From Muribaculaceae bacterium (GTDB lineage Bacteria; Bacteroidota; Bacteroidia; Bacteroidales; Muribaculaceae), in assembly GCA_017557625.1 (NCBI GenBank), contig JAFYYG010000037.1, positions 1-64,000 of the forward strand: DNA of 64,000 bases, in the 5' to 3' direction. Positions 1 through 12,277 of this stretch are shown piece after piece (the first letter of the stretch is position 1; each line of letters starts with the position of its first letter). The position numbers were made by a program, and so were the translations under genes. The notes under the pieces are model-generated. The model ran no database searches. It saw nothing but the letters and a program-made list of their open reading frames with translations, and was not told where the DNA came from.

Positions 1-1698
1 AGAAATCTCTGTTGCCAATTGCTCAACGGTCACAATGCACGAATCGCTCAAGTTGCTACCGTCGGTGGTAGTTGCGGTAATTGTGGTAACACCCTTGCCG
101 GTAGAAGTCACTGTTCCGTCGCTCGCTACTGTAGCGACATTATTATTGCTTGATGACCACACTACAGCATGGTTGTTGGCATTGCTGGGAGTAGTAGTAG
201 CAACAAGTTTAAACGAGAAATTATCTTGACCATTATATTTTAATGTGTGGCTATTTTCGTTAAGAGTTATGCCCATCACGGGTTGCACCACTGTCACTAC
301 GCACGAAGCACTAAGATTGCTACCGTCATTGGTGGTGGCAGTTATTGTAGTTGTGCCTCGCTTCAAAGCAGTAACATTTCCTAAAGAGTCAACACTTGCC
401 ACTGTTGGATTGCTTGAAGACCAAGTTACAGATTTGTTGCTGGCGTTTTCTGGGAGAATAGTAGGAGATAGCATAAATGACTCACCAACATTTAAAATTT
501 TATTCTGTTCGCTGAATTCGATAGATGTAACAAGTTGTTCTACTGTCACAATGCATGAAGCGCTCAAATTAGAACCATCTCTTGTTGTTGCTATTATTGT
601 TGAAGTGCCAGGTTCATTAGCAAAAACCGTACCATTTTGGTCAACTGTCGCAACAGATGTATTAGAAGATATCCAACCAACAACATCACAAGCATTTGTT
701 GGAAAAACTGAGGCTGTTAGTGTTGCTGTTTGGCCAACATACATGGATAATTGTGTAGTATTAAGATGTATTTCTGTCACAAAAACATCAGGGTATATAT
801 AAATAAAACTATTCCATGGATCTCTAGCTTTATACAAACTGATTGAGGCTATTGGAACTGTCAAAATGCAATCGTTTTTATTAACACCATAAAAAACATT
901 GTATCCATAAGGAGGATCTTCAATATAACTATAAATGTTTGTCAAGCCAGTGCAATTGTTGAAGGCCCAACTGCCAATAGAAGTCACCGAGTTGCCGATG
1001 GTCACCGAGGTCAAGCCGGTGCAATTAGAAAAGGCATGGTCACCAATCGAGGTCACCGAGCTGGGGATTGTCACCGAGGTCAAACCAGTGCAACCAGCGA
1101 AAGCATAAATACCAATCTCCGTCACCGAGTTGGGGATGGTTACCGAGGTCAAGCCACTGCAACCATTGAAAGCAGAGCCGCCAATCGTCGTCACCGAGTT
1201 GCCTATTATTACCGAAGTCAAGCCAGTGCAATCTATGAAGGCATTACCGCCAATCTCAGTCACCGAGTTGCCTATGGTCACCGAGGTCAAGCCACTGCAA
1301 CGCTCGAAAGCCCAGTAGCCAATCGACGTCACCGAGTTGGGGATGGTCACCGAGGTCAAGCCGGTGCAATTAGAAAAGGCATACTCACCAATCGTTGTCA
1401 CAGAATTGGGGATGGTTACCGAGGTCAAGCCGGTGCAATTAGAAAAGGCATGGTCACCAATCTCGGTCACCGGATAAGTAGTACCGTTGTAGCTGACTGT
1501 TGGGGGAATGTTAACGTCTCCAGTGTATTCGTTTGAATATGCAAAAGCACTATTTCCTCTAAATGTCACAGTAGCATGGTTGCCGTTTATCAAGTAATAT
1601 ATTCCATCAACCTCGAAGTCATGGGAGCTCGCAATTTGCGGGAGCATTGCCGCTATTAAAGCGAGCAAAATGGATTTAAATAGATTATTTTGTCTCAT
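1..1698 (-). CDS. BspA-like leucine-rich repeat surface protein with Big2 Ig-like domains (partial, 3' end off window)
   Basis: The frame is open from an ATG at 1698 to the left edge (566 codons seen, no stop). It starts with a signal peptide, then a short N-terminal domain shared with the LRR protein at 12336 (pattern DFEVDGIYY). About nine ~23-residue BspA/TpLRR repeats follow, of the form GLTSVTIPNSVTxIGxxAF. The part nearest the edge has at least two to three bacterial Ig-like (Big2) domains, seen as repeated VTWSSSNPTVASVD-like and GTTTITATT-like strands ending SCxVTV. The family is surface-exposed and linked to adhesion or binding; the ligand is not readable. The start overlaps the end of the upstream gene by 14 bases, so translation may be coupled. 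The C-terminal anchor or sorting signal is outside the window. Confidence 0.9.
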   Translation of the reverse strand, partial: MRQNNLFKSILLALIAAMLPQIASSHDFEVDGIYYLINGNHATVTFRGNSAFAYSNEYTGDVNIPPTVSYNGTTYPVTEIGDHAFSNCTGLTSVTIPNSVTTIGEYAFSNCTGLTSVTIPNSVTSIGYWAFERCSGLTSVTIGNSVTEIGGNAFIDCTGLTSVIIGNSVTTIGGSAFNGCSGLTSVTIPNSVTEIGIYAFAGCTGLTSVTIPSSVTSIGDHAFSNCTGLTSVTIGNSVTSIGSWAFNNCTGLTNIYSYIEDPPYGYNVFYGVNKNDCILTVPIASISLYKARDPWNSFIYIYPDVFVTEIHLNTTQLSMYVGQTATLTASVFPTNACDVVGWISSNTSVATVDQNGTVFANEPGTSTIIATTRDGSNLSASCIVTVEQLVTSIEFSEQNKILNVGESFMLSPTILPENASNKSVTWSSSNPTVASVDSLGNVTALKRGTTTITATTNDGSNLSASCVVTVVQPVMGITLNENSHTLKYNGQDNFSFKLVATTTPSNANNHAVVWSSSNNNVATVASDGTVTSTGKGVTTITATTTDGSNLSDSCIVTVEQLATEIS

Positions 1699-2677
1699 AT
1701 AAGTAGTGTTTGTTAATTAACATAAAACAATTCTTACATCTCAAGCAATCGGGACATTTGTTGATGATATATTTCAACTCCTTAAATTCTGGCATAGGCA
1801 TATAAACACCTAATTCAAAACCATTGGTCTGGACTTGCCTCACAATATCATCAAAAATATCTTTCATTTCGCTAGCGGAAGACACTTCTATGTGACTGCC
1901 ATTTCTAGCACCTTTTAAAACATCACCTTTACTATTCTTTACAGTAATAACAGGTAGTGATGTGACGATTTGAGTATTGTTTGGGTCTTCAATTAATCTT
2001 TTACATGGAACAAAAGAGAAGAGTTTTTGATTCTTATTATAGATTTCATTATAACTATTTTCTAAATCCTGATAAATGTGCTCTAGATAATTTCTGTTAT
2101 GTTTTCTGTTATCATACATTTTGCCAATCCATACTTTTTTATTAGGAAGAATTTTGCTTAGCGTAACATTATAGTAGGCATAAGGAAAATATTTGTCTTC
2201 ATTCTCCTTAATTTCATAATTACCCAATAAAACCATTACCGTGTCAACAATAAGTTCTTCAGGCTTATCCTTCTTGAAAGTTCCAAATATAACTATATCG
2301 CCTGGATTCATTCCTTCGCGAACTTTGCAACATACATAATAGAAGTAGTCGCCAAAGACAAAAGGATCTGTGTTTAACACTTGTGGATGAGAATCTAAAA
2401 CAGTGAGAAACGGGGAATGAATATCTTTATAAATATCTCGTAAATCGGCTTTCCATAATGGATTTGGGCGATGCTCAGAGCAACACTCCCATTCGCCAAC
2501 GAAAGTGATGTCACAATCCTCATTCTTCATGTGTGAATAATCAATAACAGAAGTGCCATGTGATTCCAACAATTTGCGGCGATGCAAGCCACTCATGTTC
2601 CATGGACAAATAACAGCTCCATTATCAGATTTGTTATAAGGGTGTGGAACAAACCATATTTTAAAATTTGTTGGCAT
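1685..2677 (-). CDS. Unrecognised 330-residue protein, first gene of a BspA operon
   Basis: I do not recognise this family. It has no signal peptide or membrane segment, so it is probably cytoplasmic. A central stretch around residues 120-150 reads NPGDIVIFGTF followed by a second hydrophobic strand (VDTVMVLLG). This spacing resembles PUA/ASCH/EVE-like or nucleotide-modification-associated domains, but that is only an impression. The C-terminus has a CPDCLRCKNCF cluster that could bind a metal. The 3' end overlaps the start of the BspA-like gene by 14 bases, so the two are almost certainly co-transcribed. The gene follows a long leader (2678-2989) related to the one before the second BspA operon. 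Its AT-rich composition differs from the housekeeping genes and fits accessory DNA. Confidence 0.75.
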   Translation of the reverse strand: MPTNFKIWFVPHPYNKSDNGAVICPWNMSGLHRRKLLESHGTSVIDYSHMKNEDCDITFVGEWECCSEHRPNPLWKADLRDIYKDIHSPFLTVLDSHPQVLNTDPFVFGDYFYYVCCKVREGMNPGDIVIFGTFKKDKPEELIVDTVMVLLGNYEIKENEDKYFPYAYYNVTLSKILPNKKVWIGKMYDNRKHNRNYLEHIYQDLENSYNEIYNKNQKLFSFVPCKRLIEDPNNTQIVTSLPVITVKNSKGDVLKGARNGSHIEVSSASEMKDIFDDIVRQVQTNGFELGVYMPMPEFKELKYIINKCPDCLRCKNCFMLINKHYLYETK

Positions 2678-2735: not shown

Positions 2736-2780
2736 AAAAAAAGCGTGAAGACTTATGTTGCTGTTGCAACGCTTTTTTTT
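2736..2780 (-). terminator. Terminator-like hairpin inside the leader of the leftward BspA operon
   Basis: On the minus strand an A-run plus GCG pairs with CGC plus a T-run, enclosing an inner hairpin GTTGC-AACA-GCAAC. The stem ends in seven T residues, so it has the form of an intrinsic terminator. It lies between the promoter at 2996-3003 and the start codon at 2677, so it could act as an attenuator or as the end of a separate small RNA. The A-run/T-run arms could also simply be low-complexity sequence. Confidence 0.5.
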
Positions 2781-2800
2781 TGAAAAAACGCACGACGACG

Positions 2801-2989
2801 CGGCACAGGCCGTTATGGTGGACTGTGATGGATAGGAACAGTGATGTGGAAGCGTGGCAGCTATTCCCGCCCACCGCAAATGGGGGGGGTTAATTTATTG
2901 ATGTTCAATGTGTTATAGTCGGCACATTGAAACAAAGAGTGATATTTGTTGGAGTTTATCACGTATATTTGCCGTTGGTTTATGCTTTA
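2801..2989 (-). ncRNA. Conserved structured leader, copy B (with 8-C run)
   Basis: Read on the minus strand, this begins about seven bases after the -7 box, at the predicted transcription start. It matches the leader at 11233-11424 in order: AAAGCATAAACC; the hairpin GTGATAAACTyCAAyAAATATCAC (GTGATA pairs TATCAC); a second hairpin TTCAATGTG...CACATTGAA (9 bp, perfect here); a run of eight C followed by ATTTGC; and CAGTCCACCATA...GGCCTG. Sequence between these blocks has diverged. Whether it is a riboswitch, a protein-binding leader or part of a mobile cassette cannot be told. Confidence 0.6.
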
Positions 2990-2995
2990 AGTCTG

Positions 2996-3003
2996 CAAAT
3001 TTA
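2996..3003 (-). promoter_or_regulatory. -7 box TAAATTTG for the leftward BspA operon
   Basis: On the minus strand this reads TAAATTTGC, a match to the Bacteroidetes TAnnTTTG -7 element. It sits directly before the conserved leader, and its counterpart before the other BspA operon (TATCTTTG, 11218-11225) has the same offset to within a base. Confidence 0.65.
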
Positions 3004-3242
3004 GTGAATAAAAAGGAAATATGCAAGGGTATTCAAGTTTATTTGGAAATAAACTTGAAGGTTAGAGGTTAGAGTTTAGAGGGGACACAGTCTCAATTTT
3101 TGAAACCACAAATTTACCAGATTAAACTAATGCCCCACGCAGGAATGGTCGCCTTCGGCGAGAAATTAATTGAAAATTAAAATAAAAATTGTTTGTCGCC
3201 AGCGTATATGAAATTTTTTATCAAATTTGTATGCAATTTTAG

Positions 3243-3306
3243 ATAAAATGCTCACGCTCGCAAGGCATTGAGCAAACTCGGCTTTGTCTCGCTTAATCGC
3301 ATTTTT
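3243..3306 (+). repeat. 64-bp dispersed repeat, copy 1
   Basis: This matches 16185-16248 at 57 of 64 positions with no gaps. Both copies run from ATAAAATGCTCACGCTCGCAA to CTCGCTTAATCGCATTTTT. The second copy lies in the nifJ leader; this one has no rightward gene after it. No coding capacity is apparent. Confidence 0.7.
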
Positions 3307-3393
3307 AAGCGAAGCGCCCACCATGCGGCATTTCCTCTCACAAAGTTGCACCTATCGGTGTCGCAAAGCCGCGCAAGCGCGGATGAATTAAAA

Positions 3394-3498
3394 TATTCCT
3401 GCGTAAGCAGGCTTTGTGACGAGCTCCGCTCGCAGCTTTGTGAGATTATACCAGTATCAAATGGAACTATGCTTCTTATGTTCTTTTGTCTAAAAAAC
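3394..3498 (+). repeat. Hairpin-bearing dispersed repeat, copy 1
   Basis: It starts with the hairpin CCTGCGTAAGCAGG, then GCTTTGTGA, a second hairpin (CGAGC-TCC-GCTCG, 3420-3432), CAGCTTTGTGAGATTA, CCAGTATCA, and a tail ending TTGTCTAAAAAAC. Copy 2 at 10310-10405 has the same order and nearly identical flanks, but its second hairpin has a different stem sequence. The tail alone recurs at 10521-10545. Confidence 0.7.
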
Positions 3499-3512
3499 AA
3501 TAATTTTAGCAC

Positions 3513-4823
3513 TTACACAAAAATGAAGTTCTCGAGCCAGATGAAGAGTATTCCGGCGAGGTAGCCGAGGAAGGCAATAAAGGTGATTCGCTTGAAGTAC
3601 CAGAAGAACGGAATCTTCTCGATGCCCATGGCCACCACTCCTGCTGCGGAACCGATAATCAGGAGGCTACCGCCCACACCGGCTGTGAAGGTGAGCAGGT
3701 GCCAGAACAGGCCGTCTTCCACGAAATAAGAGAGATAGGTTGGATCACCACCTGTCATGCCGGTGAACATCTTGATACAAGCAGCCACCAACGGCACGTT
3801 ATCGACAATCGACGACAACACACCAATCAGTCCGGCAATTGTCACCGGTTCGTGAATATTATCGTTCAAACTCCCTGCCACAGTATGCAGAATGCCTGCC
3901 TGCTGCAATGCCGACACGCTCATCAGGATGCCAAGGAAGAACAATATCGATGACATATCGATGTGGCGCATCGCCTGCGACACACGACCACCCAGCTTAG
4001 GATCTATCTTATAGCGGGTAATCAATATCTCAGTCACGAGCCAAATCACGCCGAGCGACATCATCATGCCCATGTAAGGCGGAAGGTGCGTCACGGTCTT
4101 AAAGATAGGCACAAACAGCAATCCTGCCACACCGAGGATAAGTATAGCCTTGCTGATGTGGGGATGCTCCTGCGACATGAGTATCGCCTCCTCACGGCGA
4201 GCCATGGGTTTGGGCATTGGCTCTTTCTTAATCCATCGTGTGGCGATTGCCACTGGCACAACCACCGAGATGATAGACGGCAAGAGCAGGTTCTCTATCA
4301 GGCTAGGAGCAGTAACCTTATCGGCCATCCACAGCATGATGGTGGTCACGTCACCAATTGGCGACCACGCACCGCCGCTGTTTGCCGCCAGCACCAGCAC
4401 TCCTGCAAAAATCCATCGCTCCTTCTGGTCGGGAAGCAGTCGGCGCAGCATCATAATCATGATGATGGTAGTTGTCATATTGTCGAGCACCGCCGACATA
4501 AAGAAGGTGGTGACCGACAGTATCCACAGCATACGGCGCTTGTTCTTGGCATGGATATGCTCTGTGATAAAGCTGAAACCGCCATAGCGGTCGATGTGCT
4601 CCACAATCGTCATCGCGGCGATAAGGAACATCAATATCTCGCACGTCTCGCCAAGAAATGTGAGAAGAGCGGCCTCCTTAACATCATGGGTGCATAATGA
4701 GTATATCGACCACAGCACCCCACACATTATGAGCGCGAAGGTCGATTTGTTGATCTTTAACGTGTGTTCAAGAGTAATCAACAAATAACCAATCACAAAT
4801 ACTGTGACTAATGCTATTACCAT
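3513..4823 (-). CDS. nhaD: NhaD-type Na+/H+ antiporter
   Basis: The 436-residue protein is made of about a dozen hydrophobic segments and belongs to the ArsB/NhaD ion-transporter superfamily. Characteristic stretches are SAVLDNMTTTIIMIMMLRR near residue 110 and ANSGGAWSPIGDVTTIMLW near residue 150, which match the conserved NhaD polar motifs in the membrane core. The usual role is electrogenic sodium-proton exchange at the inner membrane for pH and sodium homeostasis. The length fits the family. Its leader carries CGATAAACGATAAAACGAG directly before the ATG, one of the sense-oriented repeats seen across the window. It is monocistronic or weakly linked to the DUF4293 gene upstream. Confidence 0.9.
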   Translation of the reverse strand: MVIALVTVFVIGYLLITLEHTLKINKSTFALIMCGVLWSIYSLCTHDVKEAALLTFLGETCEILMFLIAAMTIVEHIDRYGGFSFITEHIHAKNKRRMLWILSVTTFFMSAVLDNMTTTIIMIMMLRRLLPDQKERWIFAGVLVLAANSGGAWSPIGDVTTIMLWMADKVTAPSLIENLLLPSIISVVVPVAIATRWIKKEPMPKPMARREEAILMSQEHPHISKAILILGVAGLLFVPIFKTVTHLPPYMGMMMSLGVIWLVTEILITRYKIDPKLGGRVSQAMRHIDMSSILFFLGILMSVSALQQAGILHTVAGSLNDNIHEPVTIAGLIGVLSSIVDNVPLVAACIKMFTGMTGGDPTYLSYFVEDGLFWHLLTFTAGVGGSLLIIGSAAGVVAMGIEKIPFFWYFKRITFIAFLGYLAGILFIWLENFIFV

Positions 4824-4896
4824 CTCGTTTTATCGTTTATCGGTGGAAGGTGGAAAGTGGAATCTCGTTCTCCGTTCCACGTTCTTCGTTCCTCTT

Positions 4897-5319
4897 TTAT
4901 CTGATTCTACTGCTACCGCTCAGCAAACGCTGGTCGTGAGAAATGCCTTTGTGGGCAAGCAACAGGAAGATGATTGCCAACACAGGTAGTATATTATAAT
5001 AGGTCATACTTTCAAGCAAGTCACAATCCTTGTGCATCAAGGCAATAGAGCATATTGACGCTAATGTGGCGATAATCAACAGAATATTCACAACACAAAG
5101 AATTTTCTGGAATCTCAAACTCTTGTATTTGAAAATTGTGATAAACGACAGCAAAGCAGTGAGGCAGCTCAATATGAAAGGAACCATATCAAGACTTTCG
5201 CTATATCCACCAAGTATAGTGTTTCCACTGGCATCCCACAGTGAGGGCATAAAAGCAAAAACGCCCATCAAAATGGCTGCTATCAAAAGAAATAAAGATT
5301 GTTTTCGCTGGATTACCAT
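4897..5319 (-). CDS. DUF4293 family membrane protein
   Basis: This 140-residue protein has four predicted membrane segments and starts VIQRKQSLFLLIAAILMG, the typical opening of Bacteroidetes DUF4293 proteins. The function is unknown. A -7 box (TACTTTTG on the minus strand, 5378-5385) lies about 60 bases before the ATG. The gene is divergent from the TPR gene at 5502, and the two share a ~180-base promoter region. Confidence 0.85.
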   Translation of the reverse strand: MVIQRKQSLFLLIAAILMGVFAFMPSLWDASGNTILGGYSESLDMVPFILSCLTALLSFITIFKYKSLRFQKILCVVNILLIIATLASICSIALMHKDCDLLESMTYYNILPVLAIIFLLLAHKGISHDQRLLSGSSRIR

Positions 5320-5377
5320 ATTACTACCTTATTGAAAACGTTAATATTTGTTTTTATTTGTTTCGCTTATTTTAGTG

Positions 5378-5385
5378 CAAAAGTA
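5378..5385 (-). promoter_or_regulatory. -7 box TACTTTTG for the DUF4293 gene
   Basis: On the minus strand TACTTTTGC matches TAnnTTTG and lies about 60 bases before the start codon at 5319. Confidence 0.55.
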
Positions 5386-5449
5386 ATGCAATCTATTATA
5401 ACTACAAAATAAAAATCATATTTTTTTGTCAGTTTTCGTGCAAAACACC

Positions 5450-5457
5450 TATTTTTG
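5450..5457 (+). promoter_or_regulatory. -7 box TATTTTTG for the TPR gene
   Basis: TATTTTTGC fits TAnnTTTG. A T-rich TTTTG lies about 21 bases upstream (5424-5428), a plausible -33 element. Transcription would start near 5465, which excludes the TTG at 5466 as start and supports the ATG at 5502. Confidence 0.6.
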
Positions 5458-5501
5458 CACAGTTTTTGCTATATGCAATATATAAATTTATATTAACATC
5501 A

Positions 5502-7712
5502 ATGGATAAAGCAGAAATTTCAAAATACCGAAAATTAGTTACACAATATTTGGACAGCCGGCAGCTGGTTCTGGCACTGAAGTACCTTAAAGCCATGATT
5601 GACGACACTCAGCAATGGGAGCTTAGCGAGGAACTGAAACAAATCACCACTTCCTATCACTACATGCTGCAATACATGTCACAAGGGGTCCTTGACCCGC
5701 AACGTGACAACATTTTGTCACAAATCATCGCCGATACCTATCTACTTACTGACAAAACTGTCATTGCGCTGGCAGCGTCGCAATCTACCCACATCTTCTA
5801 TCAGCGCAACCAACAATATAGAAATAGAGCATTGAAAGCTATTGTTGATGATTATTTTGCAGAGCGCAACAAGCTTCAACTGATAGGCGAGAATGTCGAA
5901 GACACCCACAACAACGAGGCTATGACTGAAATTTTGCGCCAATGTGAGACCCTTGAAAGCGACATTTTCAATAAGGTGTGGAGCATTTTCCCCGCTACAG
6001 CAGCCGATGTAGAAGACATATCAGCGTTGCTCGGCAACGAGAACCTGCCAGCTCATGTCAAGAGTCTGGTGCTCTCTGCATTAATGCTCGGGCTGTCTAA
6101 ATTCTTTGACGCTCCAAAACTCGAGTTACTTATAAAAAGCTATATTATGCTTAACGACAGTGACCTCAAACTGCGAGCGCTCATCAATGCGGTCATCATC
6201 ATCTTCCTTTATCGCAACCGTATCGCAATCTATGATGATATATTGACCGCTCTCAAGCAACTTGAGGGTGAACCAGATTTTATCAGCGACATGCAACTCA
6301 TTTTCACGCGTTTGATACATAGCCGCAACACCGAAAACATCTCTCAGAAACTTCACGACATCATCACACCCGAACTCAACAAGATGAGCTCCGAGCTTCT
6401 TGATAAAATTAAAGGAAAGACTCCCAGCGCACTCGATATCACCGAGATAGAAGAGAACCCACAATGGCAAGAATGGCTTGATAAGAGCGGAATAACAAAC
6501 AAACTTGATGAGCTCAACGAGTTGCAGATGCAAGGAGGAGACGTGTTTATTTCCACATTCTCTAAACTCAAAAGTTTCCCGTTCTTCAATACGCTCTCCA
6601 ACTGGTTCCTACCATATCATAAGAACACCTCGATAATGACCAGCATGTTTGGGACAAAAAGCATCCCTCTCACATCACTGTTCAGCGTTATGCCTATTTT
6701 ATGCGACAGCGATAAGTACTCTATGCTCATTTACATCGCTTCGGCTCCTGAGTCGCAGCGAAACATGCTATTCCAGCAGTTTGATGAACATCGAGAGCAG
6801 TTCCAGGAACTTCAAAGCGAGGACGCGCAGTCGGTAATCAAGATGCGCGACAACATCGTCAACCGATATATCCAAGATCTCTACCGTTTCTTCAAGCTGT
6901 TCTCCCGAAGACGCGAGTTCATGTCAATCTTCGACACCAACATCAACCTCACCGAAGTGGAGTGCCTGAAGCCTTACATCAGCGACACCTCTACCCTATC
7001 GGTAATCGCCGAGTTCTACTTCAAAAACGGCTTCTATGAAGATGCCATCGGCTTCTACCGCCAAATGGTAGCCAACCATGATGCCGACCCGCATGTGTAT
7101 CAAAAGATAGGTTTTGCTCAACAGTCTCTCGGAAAATACCGCGAGGCGCTGAAGAACTACTCCCGATATGAGCTCGTTGACAATGCCGATGCATGGAACA
7201 CCAAACAGATGGCACAATGCTACCGAAGCCTCCATGAGCACGACATGGCGATTGAGTATTATAACAAAGCTCTTGAACTGTCGCCACAGAGCGTGAACCT
7301 GTGTCTCAGTGTGGGACACTGTCATCTTGACAAAGGCGATTATGAAAACGCCCTGAAGCAATACTATAAAGCCGATTTCATGCCTAAAGCCAAGCATCGT
7401 GCCTGGCGTCCCATCGCTTGGTGCTCGCTGCTCACAGGCAAGCATGAGCAGGCGGTGAACTACTATGAGAAGATCATCAACGATGACACACCGACATCGC
7501 AGGACTATCTCAACTACGGTCATGTGCTGCAGGTGATGGGTCGTATTGCCGAAGCTATCACACAATACCGCAAGTCGTTTGAACTTGAGAAAAATGATTC
7601 TGAAGCTTTTTCGGAACTATATTTAGCCGACGCAAAATATTTAGTTCACAAATTAGGAATTCCATCCAGCGACTATGCTCTCATGCTTGACGCCGTGATA
7701 AATGACATATAA
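5502..7712 (+). CDS. Tetratricopeptide repeat protein
   Basis: I place the start at the ATG at 5502 (MDKAEISKYRKL, 736 residues), because a longer frame from a TTG at 5466 would begin at the predicted transcription start. The first ~490 residues are alpha-helical without an obvious domain. From about residue 500 to 715 there are tandem TPR units (patterns GFYEDAIGFYRQM, GKYREALKNYSRY, HDMAIEYYNKALEL, GDYENALKQYYKA, GRIAEAITQYRKS). There is no signal peptide, so it is probably a cytoplasmic scaffold. The partner is unknown. It is followed after 35 bases by the M3 peptidase gene, so the two may be co-transcribed. Confidence 0.85.
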   Translation: MDKAEISKYRKLVTQYLDSRQLVLALKYLKAMIDDTQQWELSEELKQITTSYHYMLQYMSQGVLDPQRDNILSQIIADTYLLTDKTVIALAASQSTHIFYQRNQQYRNRALKAIVDDYFAERNKLQLIGENVEDTHNNEAMTEILRQCETLESDIFNKVWSIFPATAADVEDISALLGNENLPAHVKSLVLSALMLGLSKFFDAPKLELLIKSYIMLNDSDLKLRALINAVIIIFLYRNRIAIYDDILTALKQLEGEPDFISDMQLIFTRLIHSRNTENISQKLHDIITPELNKMSSELLDKIKGKTPSALDITEIEENPQWQEWLDKSGITNKLDELNELQMQGGDVFISTFSKLKSFPFFNTLSNWFLPYHKNTSIMTSMFGTKSIPLTSLFSVMPILCDSDKYSMLIYIASAPESQRNMLFQQFDEHREQFQELQSEDAQSVIKMRDNIVNRYIQDLYRFFKLFSRRREFMSIFDTNINLTEVECLKPYISDTSTLSVIAEFYFKNGFYEDAIGFYRQMVANHDADPHVYQKIGFAQQSLGKYREALKNYSRYELVDNADAWNTKQMAQCYRSLHEHDMAIEYYNKALELSPQSVNLCLSVGHCHLDKGDYENALKQYYKADFMPKAKHRAWRPIAWCSLLTGKHEQAVNYYEKIINDDTPTSQDYLNYGHVLQVMGRIAEAITQYRKSFELEKNDSEAFSELYLADAKYLVHKLGIPSSDYALMLDAVINDI

Positions 7713-7747
7713 CTCGTCAACTTGTCAACTTGTTAACTATATAAAAT

Positions 7748-9841
7748 ATGAAAAAATTATTCTTATCAATCACCTTTTTACTTTCTATTGCTACTATGAT
7801 TAGTGCCGACAATGTTTTTTTCCAGCCGTTTAAGACCACCAACGGCGCTATACCCTTCGACCGAATCACTACCGCCGACTATGAGCCCGCCATTATCGAA
7901 GGCATGAAACGTCACAGCGCCGAAATCGACGCAATCGCCAACCAAGAGGCTACGCCAACCTTTGAGAACACCATCGTCGCCTTAGAGCGTTCAGGCGAGA
8001 TGCTAAACCGCGTGTTGGGAGTGTTCTACCCAATGCTATCGGCAAATGCCGATGATTCGCTGATGGCGGTATCGGAACGTATGACTCCACTGATTACTGA
8101 GCATGGCAACAGCGTGACACTAAATGAGAAACTATGGCAACGCATTGACTATGTGTATAATCATTTCGACAAGTCAAAATATGACCAAGAGGATTGGATG
8201 CTGCTCGAGAAAACTCACGAGTCGTTCGTGCGCAGTGGTGCTGCACTCCAAGGCGCTGACCGTGACAAATACCGTGAGCTATCAACTCGCCTCTCGCAAC
8301 TTACTCTGAAATTTGACCAGAATGCCCTAAAAGAGACCTCTAAATATGAAATGTGGCTCACTAAAGATGAGCTTGATGGTCTTCCCGAGAGTGCCATCGA
8401 TGCAGCGGCTGCGGCAGCAAAGGCTAAAGACCGTGAGGGAGAGTATCTTGTCACTCTGCACGCTCCCAGCTACATGGCGTTTATGAAATACAGCTCCCGT
8501 CGTGACCTGCGTGAGAAGCTCTATAAGATGTATAACTCGCAGTGTACCAGCGGCGAGTTCAACAACATCGAGATAATGCAGCAAATAGCCAACACTCGCT
8601 TGGAACTTGCCAACCTGCTTGGTTACAAGTCGTTTGCCGACTATCAGCTTGCCAATAAAATGGCGGAGAATCCCACCAATGTCTATAATATGCTCAACCA
8701 GCTCAAAGACGCTTACACCAAGACACAAAAAAGCGATATGGACAACCTGAACAAGTATGCCAGTAAGCTCGAAGGCAAAAAGTTCACTATTATGCCATGG
8801 GACTATTCCTATTACTCCAACAAACTCAAAGAGGAGAAATACAGCATCAACGACGAGCTGCTTAGGCCATATTTCAAACTTGAGAATGTGATTGACGGTG
8901 TATTTGGTTTGGCAACAAGGCTCTACGGACTGCATTTCACCGAGAACTTTGATGCGCAAGTCTTTAACCCTGAGATGCACGTTTATGATGTTACCGACGA
9001 CAACGGCAACTTCGTGGCTCTGCTCTACACCGACTTCTTCCCACGTGAGACCAAGCAGAGCGGTGCATGGATGACAAACTTCCGTGAGCAGTACCGCGAT
9101 GCCGACGGTAAGGATGTGCGACCTATAGTCACTCTCACAATGAACTTCACCCGTCCTACTGAGACCAAGCCTTCACTGCTCACCTACTACGAGGTTGAGA
9201 CTTTCATGCACGAGTTTGGGCACGGCTTGCACGGCATGCTTTCAAAGTGTAAATATGTCTCCACTTCGGGAACAAACGTTTATCGCGACTTCGTGGAGCT
9301 GCCATCGCAGTTTAATGAGAACTTCTTGAGCGAGCGCGAGTATCTCGACAGTTTCGCCAAGCACTATCTCACCGGCGAGAACATCCCACAGGATTTGGTG
9401 GAAAAAATCAAAGCCTCAGAACAATATGGCGCTGCCTACGCCTGCCTGCGCCAGCTTAGTTTCGGTTTCCTTGATATGGCTTATCACACTATCACCCAAC
9501 CTGTTTCGGGAGATGCCTTCAAGTTTGAGTATAATGCAATGAGGCCAGTGCAGATTTTTGAGCCAGTTAATGGATGCATGATGTCACCACAGTTCACACA
9601 CATCTTCTCAGGTGGTTACGCTGCCGGCTACTATGGCTACAAGTGGGCGGAGATTCTCGATGCCGATGCCTTCAGCAAATTCCAGGAAGACGGCATCTTC
9701 AATCCCGAAACAGCCAAGTCATTCAAAGAGAACATCCTTGAACGTGGCGGCACCGAGCCTCCAATGACGCTCTACAAACGCTTCCGCGGCCGCGAGCCCA
9801 AAATCGACGCCTTGCTCAAGCGCGACGGAATCAAGAAATAA
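7748..9841 (+). CDS. dcp: M3 family metallopeptidase (oligopeptidase / peptidyl-dipeptidase Dcp-like), exported
   Basis: The 697-residue protein begins with a signal peptide (MKKLFLSITFLLSIATMISA). It carries the M3 zinc motif HEFGH at residues 488-492 and the downstream glutamate region typical of thimet-like peptidases. The C-terminus GGTEPPMTLYKRFRGREPKIDALL is the usual Dcp ending. The expected role is cleavage of short peptides in the periplasm. A paralogue with the same layout lies at 34436-36562. The leader holds a (CAACTTGT)n repeat at 7713-7735. The gene ends at the edge of a MITE-like element. Confidence 0.92.
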   Translation: MKKLFLSITFLLSIATMISADNVFFQPFKTTNGAIPFDRITTADYEPAIIEGMKRHSAEIDAIANQEATPTFENTIVALERSGEMLNRVLGVFYPMLSANADDSLMAVSERMTPLITEHGNSVTLNEKLWQRIDYVYNHFDKSKYDQEDWMLLEKTHESFVRSGAALQGADRDKYRELSTRLSQLTLKFDQNALKETSKYEMWLTKDELDGLPESAIDAAAAAAKAKDREGEYLVTLHAPSYMAFMKYSSRRDLREKLYKMYNSQCTSGEFNNIEIMQQIANTRLELANLLGYKSFADYQLANKMAENPTNVYNMLNQLKDAYTKTQKSDMDNLNKYASKLEGKKFTIMPWDYSYYSNKLKEEKYSINDELLRPYFKLENVIDGVFGLATRLYGLHFTENFDAQVFNPEMHVYDVTDDNGNFVALLYTDFFPRETKQSGAWMTNFREQYRDADGKDVRPIVTLTMNFTRPTETKPSLLTYYEVETFMHEFGHGLHGMLSKCKYVSTSGTNVYRDFVELPSQFNENFLSEREYLDSFAKHYLTGENIPQDLVEKIKASEQYGAAYACLRQLSFGFLDMAYHTITQPVSGDAFKFEYNAMRPVQIFEPVNGCMMSPQFTHIFSGGYAAGYYGYKWAEILDADAFSKFQEDGIFNPETAKSFKENILERGGTEPPMTLYKRFRGREPKIDALLKRDGIKK

Positions 9842-9850
9842 TCAGAAGAA

Positions 9851-10017
9851 GGTGTGTCAAAATTTTAACTTAGTGCGCTTCGCGCAGAAATCGAACAAAT
9901 CATATCAAATCAAACATCATTTAATTCTTTGATTTTAAATAAAATAATTATTTGTTAAATTTGGAATAATTTGAAAGATTTCTCACGCGCAGCGTGACTC
10001 CTCAATTTTGACACACC
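9851..10017. mobile_element. MITE-like element with 14-bp perfect terminal inverted repeats
   Basis: The left end GGTGTGTCAAAATT (9851-9864) and the right end AATTTTGACACACC (10004-10017) are perfect inverted repeats. Further in, the arms still correspond loosely (GCGC-rich hairpin followed by GAAATC and CAAAT). The core is AT-rich and non-coding. I see no clear target-site duplication and no transposase in the window, so mobility is inference. It could also act as a terminator of the M3 peptidase gene. Confidence 0.5.
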
Positions 10018-10052
10018 CTCTTTGTATTTAGTGTGTGCATGATCAGTCGCAA

Positions 10053-10270
10053 AATGGCGTGTCCCATGCCGTTATTTAGAATATTTTATGTGGAAAAAAC
10101 GAATTATATCATTGGTTATCTTTAAATATTAATAAATTTTTAAACAGGCAGTTATACGCCAAGCTGCGAACCCCTCTGGGGTTCTTGCATGGTCTTACGA
10201 TTGAAGTCGGGTCTTCGACCCGCCCAGCATCTTCCGATGCTTAATCGCCTATACTTTGGCGTGTCCCATT
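10053..10270. repeat. Multi-hairpin intergenic element bounded by TGGCGTGTCCCAT direct repeats
   Basis: TGGCGTGTCCCAT occurs at both ends (around 10054 and 10257). Between them are successive short GC-rich hairpins with small loops: GAACCCC-T-C-TGGGGTTC, CGGGTC-TTC-GACCCG and AGCATC-TTCC-GATGCT. ATACGCCAAG also pairs at a distance with CTTTGGCGT. No reading frame is apparent. It resembles a structured palindromic repeat rather than a terminator. Confidence 0.45.
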
Positions 10271-10309
10271 CAGAAAAACAGGAATCGCCTCACGGCGGAA
10301 ATATATAAA

Positions 10310-10405
10310 TTATCCTGCGTAAGCAGGCTTTGTGACCACGAAGTGGCAACTTTTTGAGATTAGACCAGTATCATATGGAAATATGATTCTTTATGTGTCT
10401 AAAAC
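10310..10405 (+). repeat. Hairpin-bearing dispersed repeat, copy 2
   Basis: It matches 3394-3498 in order: CCTGCGTAAGCAGG hairpin, GCTTTGTGA, a hairpin, a CAACTTTTTGAGATTA block, ACCAGTATCA, ATGGAA, and a shortened TGTCTAAAA tail. Its middle hairpin is CCAC-GAA-GTGG (10336-10346), where copy 1 has CGAGC-TCC-GCTCG. Confidence 0.7.
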
Positions 10406-10572
10406 CACCTCGGAGTCCTTGCTTCTACTCACTTTTTTGACAATACAGACATAAAGACATTGTTTGTCAGTTTGTTCAGTTTGTCAGTCTGTCTAAAAAA
10501 TTATTCTATTCTTATGTGGACTTATGTTCTTTTGTCTAAAAAACTAGATAAAATTTGCAATTTCCAAAATAA

Positions 10573-10588
10573 GTACTTAAATTTGTAC
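10573..10588 (+). promoter_or_regulatory. Probable promoter/operator of the YefM-YoeB operon
   Basis: A -7 box TAAATTTG (10578-10585) lies between two GTAC half-sites (10573-10576 and 10585-10588), the second within TTGTAC. YefM-family antitoxins are known to bind TGTACA-type palindromes in their own promoter, so autorepression here is a reasonable inference. The antitoxin ATG follows 19 bases after the second half-site. Confidence 0.5.
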
Positions 10589-10607
10589 GTTTTTAACATG
10601 ATTGATT

Positions 10608-10898
10608 ATGAAAACAGCCAATTTTACAGAGCTTCGCTCAAATCTAAAAGGATTTCTTGACCAAGTAATTGCCAATAGCGAACCTCTCTTGATAAGCCGC
10701 CCTCACAATGAGAGTGTGGTGGTTATCTCGTTAGAAGAGTACAATGCACTTAAGGAGACTGAATACATAATGCGACAGCCAGAGATAATGGAATCGCTCC
10801 AAGCTGCCGAGCATGATGTGGAGTATGGGAAAACATATACCCAAGCTCAAAACGAATCGGTTGAGGAGTTCTTAAATCGCATGGCATGTACCGAATAG
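10608..10898 (+). CDS. yefM: Antitoxin, Phd/YefM family
   Basis: I choose the ATG at 10608 (MKTANFTELRSNLKGFLDQV, 96 residues) over an in-frame TTG two codons earlier. The N-terminal part matches the YefM/Phd fold, with the SEPLLISRP and SVVVISLEEYNALKET motifs that form the DNA-binding dimer. The C-terminal half is the acidic, flexible region that wraps the toxin. The gene overlaps the toxin start by 13 bases, the standard arrangement for co-translation. Role: neutralises YoeB and represses the operon. Confidence 0.9.
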   Translation: MKTANFTELRSNLKGFLDQVIANSEPLLISRPHNESVVVISLEEYNALKETEYIMRQPEIMESLQAAEHDVEYGKTYTQAQNESVEEFLNRMACTE

Positions 10899-11158
10899 TT
10901 TTCACCCGCGAGGCACAGCAGCAATACCGGCATTTCATAAAAAGCGGCAATGTCAAACTCGTAGAGAAGATTAATAGGCTTATCGTTGATATTGCAGAGC
11001 ATCCCTACACAGGCATTGGCAAACCCGAGGCACTTCGTTTCTCGCTCGCTGGCAAGTGGTCACGACACATAAACCACGAGCACCGCATTGTTTACACTGT
11101 TAATGACCAAACTGTCATTGTAACAATCCTCACAATGCGCTATCATTACACAAAATAA
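10886..11158 (+). CDS. yoeB: Toxin, Txe/YoeB family mRNA interferase
   Basis: The 90-residue protein has the RelE/YoeB fold signature: an N-terminal REAQQQYRHF helix, the KPEALRFSLAGKWSRHINHEHRIVYTV core, and the terminal RYHY that carries catalytic residues in YoeB. Known members cut mRNA at the ribosomal A site. All key positions look intact, so it should be active. The pair sits in a repeat-rich accessory region between the two BspA-like loci. Confidence 0.93.
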   Translation: MYRIVFTREAQQQYRHFIKSGNVKLVEKINRLIVDIAEHPYTGIGKPEALRFSLAGKWSRHINHEHRIVYTVNDQTVIVTILTMRYHYTK

Positions 11159-11217
11159 AGATGACACTTCTTTTAAAAAAATAATCTGCTAATTACTGAT
11201 AAATCAATTCTTTTTAA

Positions 11218-11225
11218 TATCTTTG
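11218..11225 (+). promoter_or_regulatory. -7 box TATCTTTG for the rightward BspA operon
   Basis: TATCTTTGC fits the TAnnTTTG consensus. Transcription would begin at or just before the conserved block AAAGCATAAACC, the same geometry as at the other BspA operon. No clear -33 TTTG is visible. Confidence 0.65.
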
Positions 11226-11232
11226 CAAAAAT

Positions 11233-11424
11233 AAAGCATAAACCAAAGGCAAAAACAAAGTGATAAACTTCAATAAATATCACAATTTAGTTCAATGTGT
11301 TATCGATAATACGCTGAACACCAACCCATTACCCCCCCCCATTTGCATTAAGAGAAAATAGTTTTCACACAACCACAACACTAATAGTCTCACAGCACAG
11401 TCCACCATAGCATGGCCTGCGCCG
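11233..11424 (+). ncRNA. Conserved structured leader, copy A (with 9-C run)
   Basis: This is homologous to the leader at 2801-2989 on the other strand. It has AAAGCATAAACC; the GTGATA...TATCAC hairpin; and a second hairpin TTCAATGTGTTAT-CG-ATAATACGCTGAA of 13 pairs with one mismatch and two G-T pairs. A run of nine C (11332-11340) followed by ATTTGC comes next, then CAGTCCACCATA...GGCCTGCGCCG. The second hairpin pairs in both copies although its 3' arm differs, which supports an RNA structure. It precedes the start codon at 11534 by ~110 bases. Confidence 0.6.
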
Positions 11425-11533: not shown

Positions 11534-12277
11534 ATGACATTACTAAAACTTTTAGAACAAGACCTTCGCTGTTGGATTGAGCAAGGTAACAAGCGTATAT
11601 TGTTTAATGAACGAGATTTCCAACTACAGTTAGCAATGTGGTTGCTTAAGAGTGGAAACTACGATGCTGTTGAATTGGAATACCATGTCCCTGCACAGGA
11701 ATTAAACAAAGATAATGATTACGTTTGGGTAAATCCAAATAGAAAGAAAAAAGAAGACTCACACCCAGCAGAACTTCAAGAAATGTATCTTGACATTGTT
11801 GTTGAGAAAGATAGCCGGTTTGCCATTGTAGAGTTGAAATACCCTACAAAGATAGAACCTATTAAGATAAAACGATTTGGTGATTCCAAAGAATTCACTG
11901 ATATACTGAAGAATCAAGGTGCCGACAACATAGTAAAGTATAATTTCTGGAAAGACGTGCGTCGCATCGAACTTGTAAAACGCAGATTTAACAATGTGGT
12001 GGGTGGATTTGCTTTTATGCTGACTAATGATAGAATATACCAGGTTCAGCCCAAAGCAGACACTTACAAACTTAATTTTAGTATGGCTGAGAAGACAAAA
12101 GATGGCCGCACTATATTACACTGCAAAGACAAGTCTTGGGTGCAAGTCAAAGGCAAAGACACTTCTTTAAAAGAACATTTGCCAGACTTCAAGGTTGACA
12201 AGGAATACGAAACCCCGTGGAACAGCACTTTATGTGACGATGTGGAGTTTTACTATACTATTGTTAGAATTGACTGA
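11534..12277 (+). CDS. PD-(D/E)XK nuclease-like protein, first gene of a BspA operon
   Basis: I do not recognise a named family. The 247-residue protein has a pattern suggesting a PD-(D/E)XK nuclease fold: an N-terminal helix with a conserved-looking Glu (NERDFQLQLAMWL), then YLDIVV around residue 95 and FAIVELKY (E-x-K) around residue 105, then a GGFAFMLTND strand. There is no signal peptide, so it would act in the cytoplasm. Nuclease activity is inference. It lies behind the structured leader and 58 bases before the BspA-like gene, the same position as the unrelated gene at 1685-2677. Confidence 0.75.
   Translation: MTLLKLLEQDLRCWIEQGNKRILFNERDFQLQLAMWLLKSGNYDAVELEYHVPAQELNKDNDYVWVNPNRKKKEDSHPAELQEMYLDIVVEKDSRFAIVELKYPTKIEPIKIKRFGDSKEFTDILKNQGADNIVKYNFWKDVRRIELVKRRFNNVVGGFAFMLTNDRIYQVQPKADTYKLNFSMAEKTKDGRTILHCKDKSWVQVKGKDTSLKEHLPDFKVDKEYETPWNSTLCDDVEFYYTIVRID

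Follow-up and report, generated by a model that had tools for sequence, protein, structure and literature searches.

A short proline-bearing reading frame and two covarying hairpins form a candidate attenuator family before secreted-protein genes in a genus of Muribaculaceae

The Two Leaders and Their Operons

The DNA analysed here is a 64,000-nucleotide (nt) stretch of a Muribaculaceae bacterium genome (positions 1 to 64,000 of contig JAFYYG010000037.1, assembly GCA_017557625.1; hereafter the window), in which two operons encoding BspA-like proteins are each preceded by a related 5' leader (Table 1). Both leaders carry a short open reading frame (ORF) of 33 codons together with hairpins, and they belong to a family of leaders located before secreted-protein genes, which is examined here as a candidate attenuator. 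The original prediction, made from the sequence of the window, had placed the leaders at 2801-2989 on the minus strand and 11233-11424 on the plus strand; they are present, and homologous to each other (74% identity over query positions 23-225, E 6.9e-29, in a BLAST search of the own genome), and their limits were only slightly refined. The promoter box proposed before each of them was also found, TAnnTTTG being the Bacteroidetes-type -7 consensus, and the start codons (2677 and 11534) are ~123 and ~109 nt past the ends first proposed, where 110-125 bases had been predicted. Compared with dinucleotide shuffles, the minus leader folds with a z of -2.75 (0 of 200 shuffles as good) and the plus leader with a z of -2.78 (2 of 200). 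A scan for terminators returned two terminator-like sites in the minus-leader region, both strands counted, against 0.3 expected.

The minus operon consists of the leader, a 330-amino-acid (aa) ORF and a BspA-like leucine-rich repeat (LRR)/Big_2 protein, and the plus operon of the leader, a 247-aa ORF and a BspA-like LRR/dockerin protein, as identified with Pfam. The leaders thus stand before BspA-like operons as predicted, with the qualification that in each an ORF without a Pfam match separates the leader from the BspA-like gene. The two operons do point apart; however, the leaders are ~8.2 kb from each other and genes for a CitMHS transporter, a TPR protein, an M3 peptidase and a YefM/YoeB pair (Pfam) lie between them, so that the operons have no common promoter region.

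Table 1. Coordinates of the leaders, their parts and the genes that follow in the window. The GTG start codon is read as M in both leader peptides.
Feature	Position	Strand	Basis
Minus-strand leader	2803-2988	-	Sequence and leader alignment
Plus-strand leader, beginning with the conserved CATAAACC stretch and ending with the last hairpin	11233-11422	+	Sequence and leader alignment
-7 box TAAATTTG of the minus leader	2996-3003	-	
-7 box TATCTTTG of the plus leader, Bacteroidetes-type TAnnTTTG	11218-11225	+	
Minus leader ORF, GTG start, MINSNKYHSLFQCADYNTLNINKLTPPICGGRE, TAG stop	2861-2962	-	
Plus leader ORF, GTG start, MINFNKYHNLVQCVIDNTLNTNPLPPPICIKRK, TAG stop	11260-11361	+	Family-wide coding evidence
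Hairpin 2 (TTCAATGTG / CACATTGAA)	2904-2931	-	Folding
Hairpin 2 (TTCAATGTG arm), within the ORF, right before the proline codons	11290-11319	+	Folding; family covariation
Codons ACC CCC CCC (T-P-P), codons 25-27	2882-2890	-	
Proline codons CCC CCC CCC, codons 25-27	11332-11340	+	
Last hairpin CACAGTCC..GGCCTGTG	2804-2827	-	Folding
Last hairpin GCACAGTCC..GGCCTGCGC, without a U-tract after it	11395-11422	+	Folding
Terminator-like stem CGCGTCGTCGTGCG then TTTTTT, adjoining the last hairpin	2789-2802	-	Terminator scan
A/T-flanked inverted repeat AAAAAAAGCG..CGCTTTTTTT, second terminator-like element	2736-2779	-	Scan reports the site on the opposite strand
BspA-like LRR/Big_2 protein, cut by the window and contig start	1-1698	-	Pfam
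330-aa ORF between leader and BspA-like gene	1685-2677	-	
247-aa ORF between leader and BspA-like gene, DIVV..ELK motif	11534-12277	+	
BspA-like LRR protein with dockerin domain, 1228 aa	12336-16022	+	Pfam

A Family of Leaders in One Genus

A BLAST search with the plus leader revealed two more clear places in the own genome, one before another BspA-like gene and one truncated, and reached 5 of the 101 genomes of the genus in all. A covariance model built from six copies (R1) found five places in the own genome and, at E up to 0.1, matches in 14 of 397 family genomes, the new ones including a second leader type (type B) characterized by ATG starts and a longer last hairpin; seven of the 20 R1 places (L037, L039, L040, L041, L042, L044 and L046) were set aside as non-members by eye. 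Since the all-family alignment A3 offset hairpin 2 by one column between the two types, a second model (R2) was built from six type-B sequences only (alignment A4), namely R1 matches down to E 0.034 that were chosen after their ORF and hairpins had been seen. At E up to 0.1, R2 found 75 places in 35 of the 101 genus genomes, 57 of which, in 28 genomes, score at least 34 bits, while the weak places L109, L110, L139, L143, L147, L149 and L151 look like chance. The own genome holds seven R2 places (the minus window copy at 27.9 bits) and the truncated R1 place, eight altogether, and a further R2 place, at C66, spans the last hairpin alone. In 40 of 47 family members the 80 nt preceding the leader ORF contain a TAnnTTTG box, where shuffles give 4.8.

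In the family-wide search at E up to 0.01, R2 matches occur in 27 of 397 genomes, 24 of them of the same genus; the other three score 30.7-33.2 bits, the latter being the highest value outside the genus, and two of these are closed in the expected frame. By eye, L152 (1501-1627, minus strand, genome G295 of another genus, 33.2 bits) reads MALNVKYLCFVFLIFELNAVKTNILPPPF, a 29-residue ORF ending in ILPPPF, and is possibly a distant relative. In the order, matches at E up to 0.1 were found in 16 of 393 genomes besides the own one, none above 30 bits. The restriction to a single genus holds at the sensitivity of R2 only, because the larger searches apply stricter filters, which miss weak matches. 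One named relative was recovered, the rumen metagenome-assembled genome RUG12310 (CACYVC010000007.1).

The C-run alone was rejected as a signal: the pattern WTTACCCCCCCCN{0,2}AT occurs in 97 of 393 order genomes, and 30 loci (L052-L081) are unlike the leader by eye. At these loci C-runs of 8-10 follow TTA, several of them shortly before start codons and in contexts unrelated to the leader. The reversed-pattern control was contaminated, as sites such as TTACCCCCCCCATTT match both directions, and no inference was drawn from it.

The proposal that the element is undescribed was borne out by the searches made. At the gathering score, Rfam 15 (including Bacteroidales-1, Bacteroides-1 and Bacteroid-trp) has no match in the window or in 12 loci of family members, relaxed thresholds (E up to 5 and 1) gave implausible matches only, and a description of the leader was not found in the open-licence literature searched.

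A Conserved Reading Frame Within the Leader

When both leader types are aligned they share one common frame, opened by GTG in the window copies and their close kin and by ATG in type B. In the copies first aligned, 24 or 25 codons are followed by Pro-Pro-Pro and the frame ends after 33-61 codons, except in L030 (G000:C10:12467-12572), a truncated and degenerate copy that keeps the first half of the leader and has lost the prolines and the last hairpin. The C-run followed by ATTTGC, listed by the original prediction among the shared elements, is present, but it is formed by codons of this ORF, reading L-T-P-P in the minus and L-P-P-P in the plus copy. The leader is therefore more than a structured RNA; the prediction missed its main feature, the conserved short frame, and the family is not specific to BspA-like genes.

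The coding potential was counted in 48 non-training, deduplicated R2 matches scoring 34 bits or more. Model positions 9-11 read ATG in 41 of them, GTG in 3 and another codon in 4; over 24 codons, frame 0 stays open in 39 copies, frame 1 in none and frame 2 in five; and two consecutive proline codons (PP) within 34 codons are found in frame 0 in 27 copies, as opposed to 2 and 3 in the other frames. In the 32 PP-bearing members, training copies included, proline is encoded by CCC 47 times, CCA 21, CCG 9 and CCT 7, and PP starts at codon 25 in 14 members and at codon 26 in 12. Moreover, single-change codons are synonymous more often than expected: outside the hairpin, 31 versus 17.7 in 13 pairs and 112 versus 59.7 in 32 pairs; within it, 22 versus 10.0 and 22 versus 18.1, respectively, for pairs 60-97% identical that overlap, so that these counts are not independent. 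The frame also finds support in L019 (1491-1599, minus strand, genome G006), where a deletion of 27 codons, hairpin 2 and the prolines included, is in frame and leaves an 18-residue end identical to that of its relative L029. The conserved residues of the peptide are I7, N17, L19, L24 and P25/P26, and neither the window peptides nor those of three relatives (0 of 5) match Pfam or NCBIfam at E up to 1. Taken from the sequence evidence, the leader ORF is very probably translated.

Hairpins and the Terminator-Like End

Two hairpins had been distinguished in the original prediction. The first, GTGATA..TATCAC, overlaps the GTG of the leader ORF and is found in four of the six sequences of A2, but L003/L029 and L018/L032 start with GTGAC, which breaks it, and the same applies to L034. 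The second had been noted to pair although its 3' arm differs between the copies; across the wider family, it is in the second and the last hairpin that pairing is maintained by compensatory changes. In an alignment of 77 R2 matches (75 distinct), which includes the six training rows and weak matches and was fitted to the structure, 90.8% of the cells pair, versus 77.9% in shuffled and 33-43% in slid controls, cells changed on both sides number 152 versus 40.3 and 25-55, respectively, and both sides have changed in 19 of the 21 pairs. The two helices themselves are simple and the sequence between them is variable.

Hairpin 2 ends 12-18 nt before the first proline codon in 28 of 33 copies. The distance from the P site to the trailing edge of the ribosome is quoted as 12-15 nt in the account of the mgt leaders (PMC3641672), and the end of the hairpin would thus lie near the trailing edge of a ribosome positioned at the prolines. 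By a fixed rule, the last hairpin is terminator-like in 25 of 41 copies, whereas 2.5 were expected from shuffles, and in the 37 strong hairpins T makes up 59% of the ten bases that follow, compared with 34% further on. The stop codon of the leader ORF falls between 12 nt before the start of the last hairpin and a point beyond it in 39 of 48 copies, the hairpins being placed by a simple heuristic that misplaces some of them.

Genes Downstream of the Leaders

A gene starts within 300 nt after the leader in 46 of the 48 members, and in 32 of these the last hairpin is 25-62 nt from the ATG. According to a crude rule, 42 of the 46 downstream products have a signal-peptide-like start, versus 10 of 46 window ORFs. 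One of the four exceptions is the plus window copy, in which the 247-aa ORF comes first; the minus copy lies below the score cut and outside this count, and its first ORF is not evidently secreted either. Eight downstream proteins were compared with Pfam, which identified BspA-type LRR, other LRR, dockerin, InlB-repeat and Sel1/TPR proteins and left one without a match. BLAST links 34 of the 45 downstream proteins, and most of the others are singletons.

The covariance-model search suggested with the original prediction led to homologues before BspA-like and other secreted-protein genes, and covariation is significant, which supports a cis-regulatory leader of surface-protein operons and runs counter to the lack of homologues or of covariation named as refuting it. 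Thirteen pairs of leaders with about 75-81% identity in the first 84 nt of the ORF stand before proteins without BLAST similarity, which indicates that the leader module is reused and gives weak support to the suggestion of a cassette-type leader. By eye, an LRR gene of the own genome (L010) has the -7 box and a short leader only, so the module is optional.

A Possible Attenuation Mechanism

On balance, the element is best read as an attenuator with a polyproline leader peptide that recurs in front of many secreted-protein genes. From the features described above we infer the following course of translation, stalling and termination. Transcription would start a few bases after TAnnTTTG, judging from the motif, and the short leader ORF would be translated with RNA polymerase still close by. 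Pro-Pro(-Pro) at codons 25-27 would then slow the ribosome unless EF-P and prolyl-tRNA suffice, and hairpin 2 could refold just behind the slowed ribosome or, at an earlier point, make the polymerase pause. Farther along, close to or past the stop codon of the ORF, comes a G+C-rich hairpin whose tail is rich in T. A ribosome that has passed the prolines would keep pace with the polymerase and block this terminator, as in pyrL, allowing expression of the secreted-protein gene, whereas behind a stalled ribosome the hairpin would terminate transcription and the gene would stay off. For attenuation by transcription termination the sequence evidence leaves the balance even, and the direction of the response, with expression when translation runs well and cut-off on stalling, is proposed only tentatively; these gradings, like that given to translation, are judgements.

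Several observations weigh against this interpretation. Frame 0 is not open for 24 codons in 9 of the 48 non-training matches and PP is absent within 34 codons in 21 of them, and L019, located before a BspA-like gene, lacks hairpin 2 and the prolines altogether. Hairpin 2 overlaps conserved codons, so that constraint on the peptide and on the RNA is not fully separable there. By the same fixed rule, 16 of the 41 copies are without a terminator-like last hairpin, and the scan found no terminator-like site in the plus window leader. In 9 of the 48 copies, both window copies among them as judged by sequence, the stop codon of the leader ORF lies 25-35 nt ahead of the last hairpin, a distance over which a terminating ribosome would not reach the hairpin. 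Finally, pairing of the leader with either arm of the terminator is not enriched in 37 copies (z 0.32 and -0.09), and mutually exclusive antiterminators of the trp/his type were therefore not recovered in this test. With no antiterminator found, the best fit is a pyrL-like mechanism, the terminator being blocked by a ribosome that follows closely.

Alternative Explanations

The ORF could also be translated with control exerted on translation or RNA stability, the last hairpin gating reinitiation or ribosome access, or shielding the 5' end of the mRNA, with no termination involved. The short distance from the last hairpin to the ATG in most members, the copies without a U-tract, including the plus window copy, and the negative result for antiterminator pairing all agree with this explanation. 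However, the enrichment of T right after the last hairpin and the excess of terminator-like hairpins over shuffles point to termination, and in the window operons the gene is more than 100 nt from the hairpin; we consider such control unlikely, if worth keeping in mind.

Rho-dependent attenuation has a smaller chance of being correct. Here, the C-rich and G-poor stretch past the prolines would be a rut site on which Rho loads when the ribosome stalls or leaves, in analogy to mgtL/mgtA, which acts via Rho (PMC5021804 and PMC3641672). From the prolines to the last hairpin the mean C content is 22.3% and that of G 14.3%, C exceeds G in 34 of 43 copies, and the lack of a U-tract in the plus window copy would be accounted for. 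Nevertheless, the bias of C over G is modest, a C-run of at least seven is found in only 17 of 48 copies, and most of the copies examined do have a covarying, terminator-like hairpin.

A purely structured RNA, such as a riboswitch or a protein-binding leader in which the open frame is incidental, is improbable: two helices covary strongly, but the asymmetry between frames, the synonymous excess and the synonymous variation among the proline codons speak for coding, and a conserved ligand-binding core was not seen in the variable sequence between the helices. This explanation in its plain form was dropped because the C-run lies in frame with the open ORF. Lastly, it is very improbable that the leader is left over from an insertion element or some other mobile unit and lies upstream of genes by chance, as the very similar leaders before unrelated genes and the patchy range within the genus might suggest, given that promoter, ORF, hairpins and gene keep a fixed order in most members, that both the frame and the base pairs are under selection, that an exact leader-pattern scan gave no match in viral contigs (and one in genome contigs), and that no sign of an insertion element was found, nor a transposase among the Pfam-scanned ORFs beside the window copies, target-site duplications not having been searched.

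Relation to Known Leaders

Leader peptides are a known kind of regulator, and what is new, as far as known, is a single family common to many unrelated secreted-protein genes. Among the closest parallels to a polyproline attenuator are mgtP and mgtL of Salmonella (mgtCBR and mgtA), where a short ORF in the mRNA of an envelope-related gene also has consecutive proline codons by a stem-loop, and for which stalling at proline has been proposed (PMC3641672). In contrast, the sequences are unrelated, and here one leader family precedes many unrelated genes. The mgtP and mgtL stem-loops are unlike intrinsic terminators and alternative stems were proposed for them, while in the present family the last hairpin is often terminator-like and alternative pairing was not found.

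The attenuator of pyrL resembles the proposed mechanism in another respect. There, a ribosome translating the leader close behind RNA polymerase keeps an intrinsic terminator from acting, and in E. coli without EF-P a polyproline stall placed before the pyrL terminator leads to more termination and lower downstream expression, as described for this reporter in PMC5021804. That EF-P-dependent construct (PMC5021804) is artificial, unlike the natural leader considered here. The present leader would be comparable to arrest peptides such as TnaC, SecM and MifM in having ~24-27 nascent residues ahead of its putative stall site, conserved at I7, N17, L19, L24 and P25/P26; here, PP by itself could suffice. 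The natural pyrL leader, for its part, senses uridine triphosphate (UTP) via polymerase pausing.

Leader-type control has been reported in the same phylum for the Bacteroid-trp RNA (RF01692), as listed in PMC2864571, and for candidate leader peptides before amino-acid operons of Flavobacterium, as given in PMC9723704. Those leaders serve biosynthesis, whereas the present one serves secreted proteins and has no Rfam match. Short ORFs in some long 5' untranslated regions are also mentioned for B. thetaiotaomicron (PMC7366714).

First Genes of the Window Operons

The ORFs between leader and BspA-like gene are not alike. The 330-aa ORF has no match in Pfam, PADLOC or NCBIfam. In the 247-aa ORF, whose homologues occur in 18 of 207 family genomes (own counted), an alignment of 16 homologues shows no variation at D87 and E100-L-K102, and this DIVV..ELK motif resembles that of PD-(D/E)XK nucleases. 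A profile search of this ORF against solved structures gave no E below 0.09, and the sole sensible match was a Cas4-family exonuclease (E 0.75) over the DIVV..ELK stretch. At L034 (1774-2673, plus strand) a 299-aa ORF that resembles the PADLOC candidate PDC-S31 (E 1.1e-15) holds the same place. Three leader-BspA operons thus have three different first genes; accessory genes, perhaps for defence, may enter at this slot. The YefM/YoeB toxin-antitoxin pair (10602-11158, plus strand) lies immediately upstream of the plus leader.

Implications for the Genus

Leader peptides are usually described operon by operon. Here, one leader family, with both its peptide and two RNA hairpins under selection, precedes dozens of secreted-protein genes in one genus. 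It is conceivable, though rather doubtful, that one nascent-peptide arrest module before many unrelated secreted-protein genes of this Bacteroidales genus constitutes a regulon, in which much of the surface and secreted output would be switched jointly by the state of translation (EF-P activity, proline charging or ribosome speed) without a dedicated transcription factor. If the proposed mechanism is correct, the output of surface proteins would be tied directly to the translation of proline runs, and the natural variants with and without PP and with and without a U-tract would provide material on stalling, coupling and termination outside Proteobacteria.

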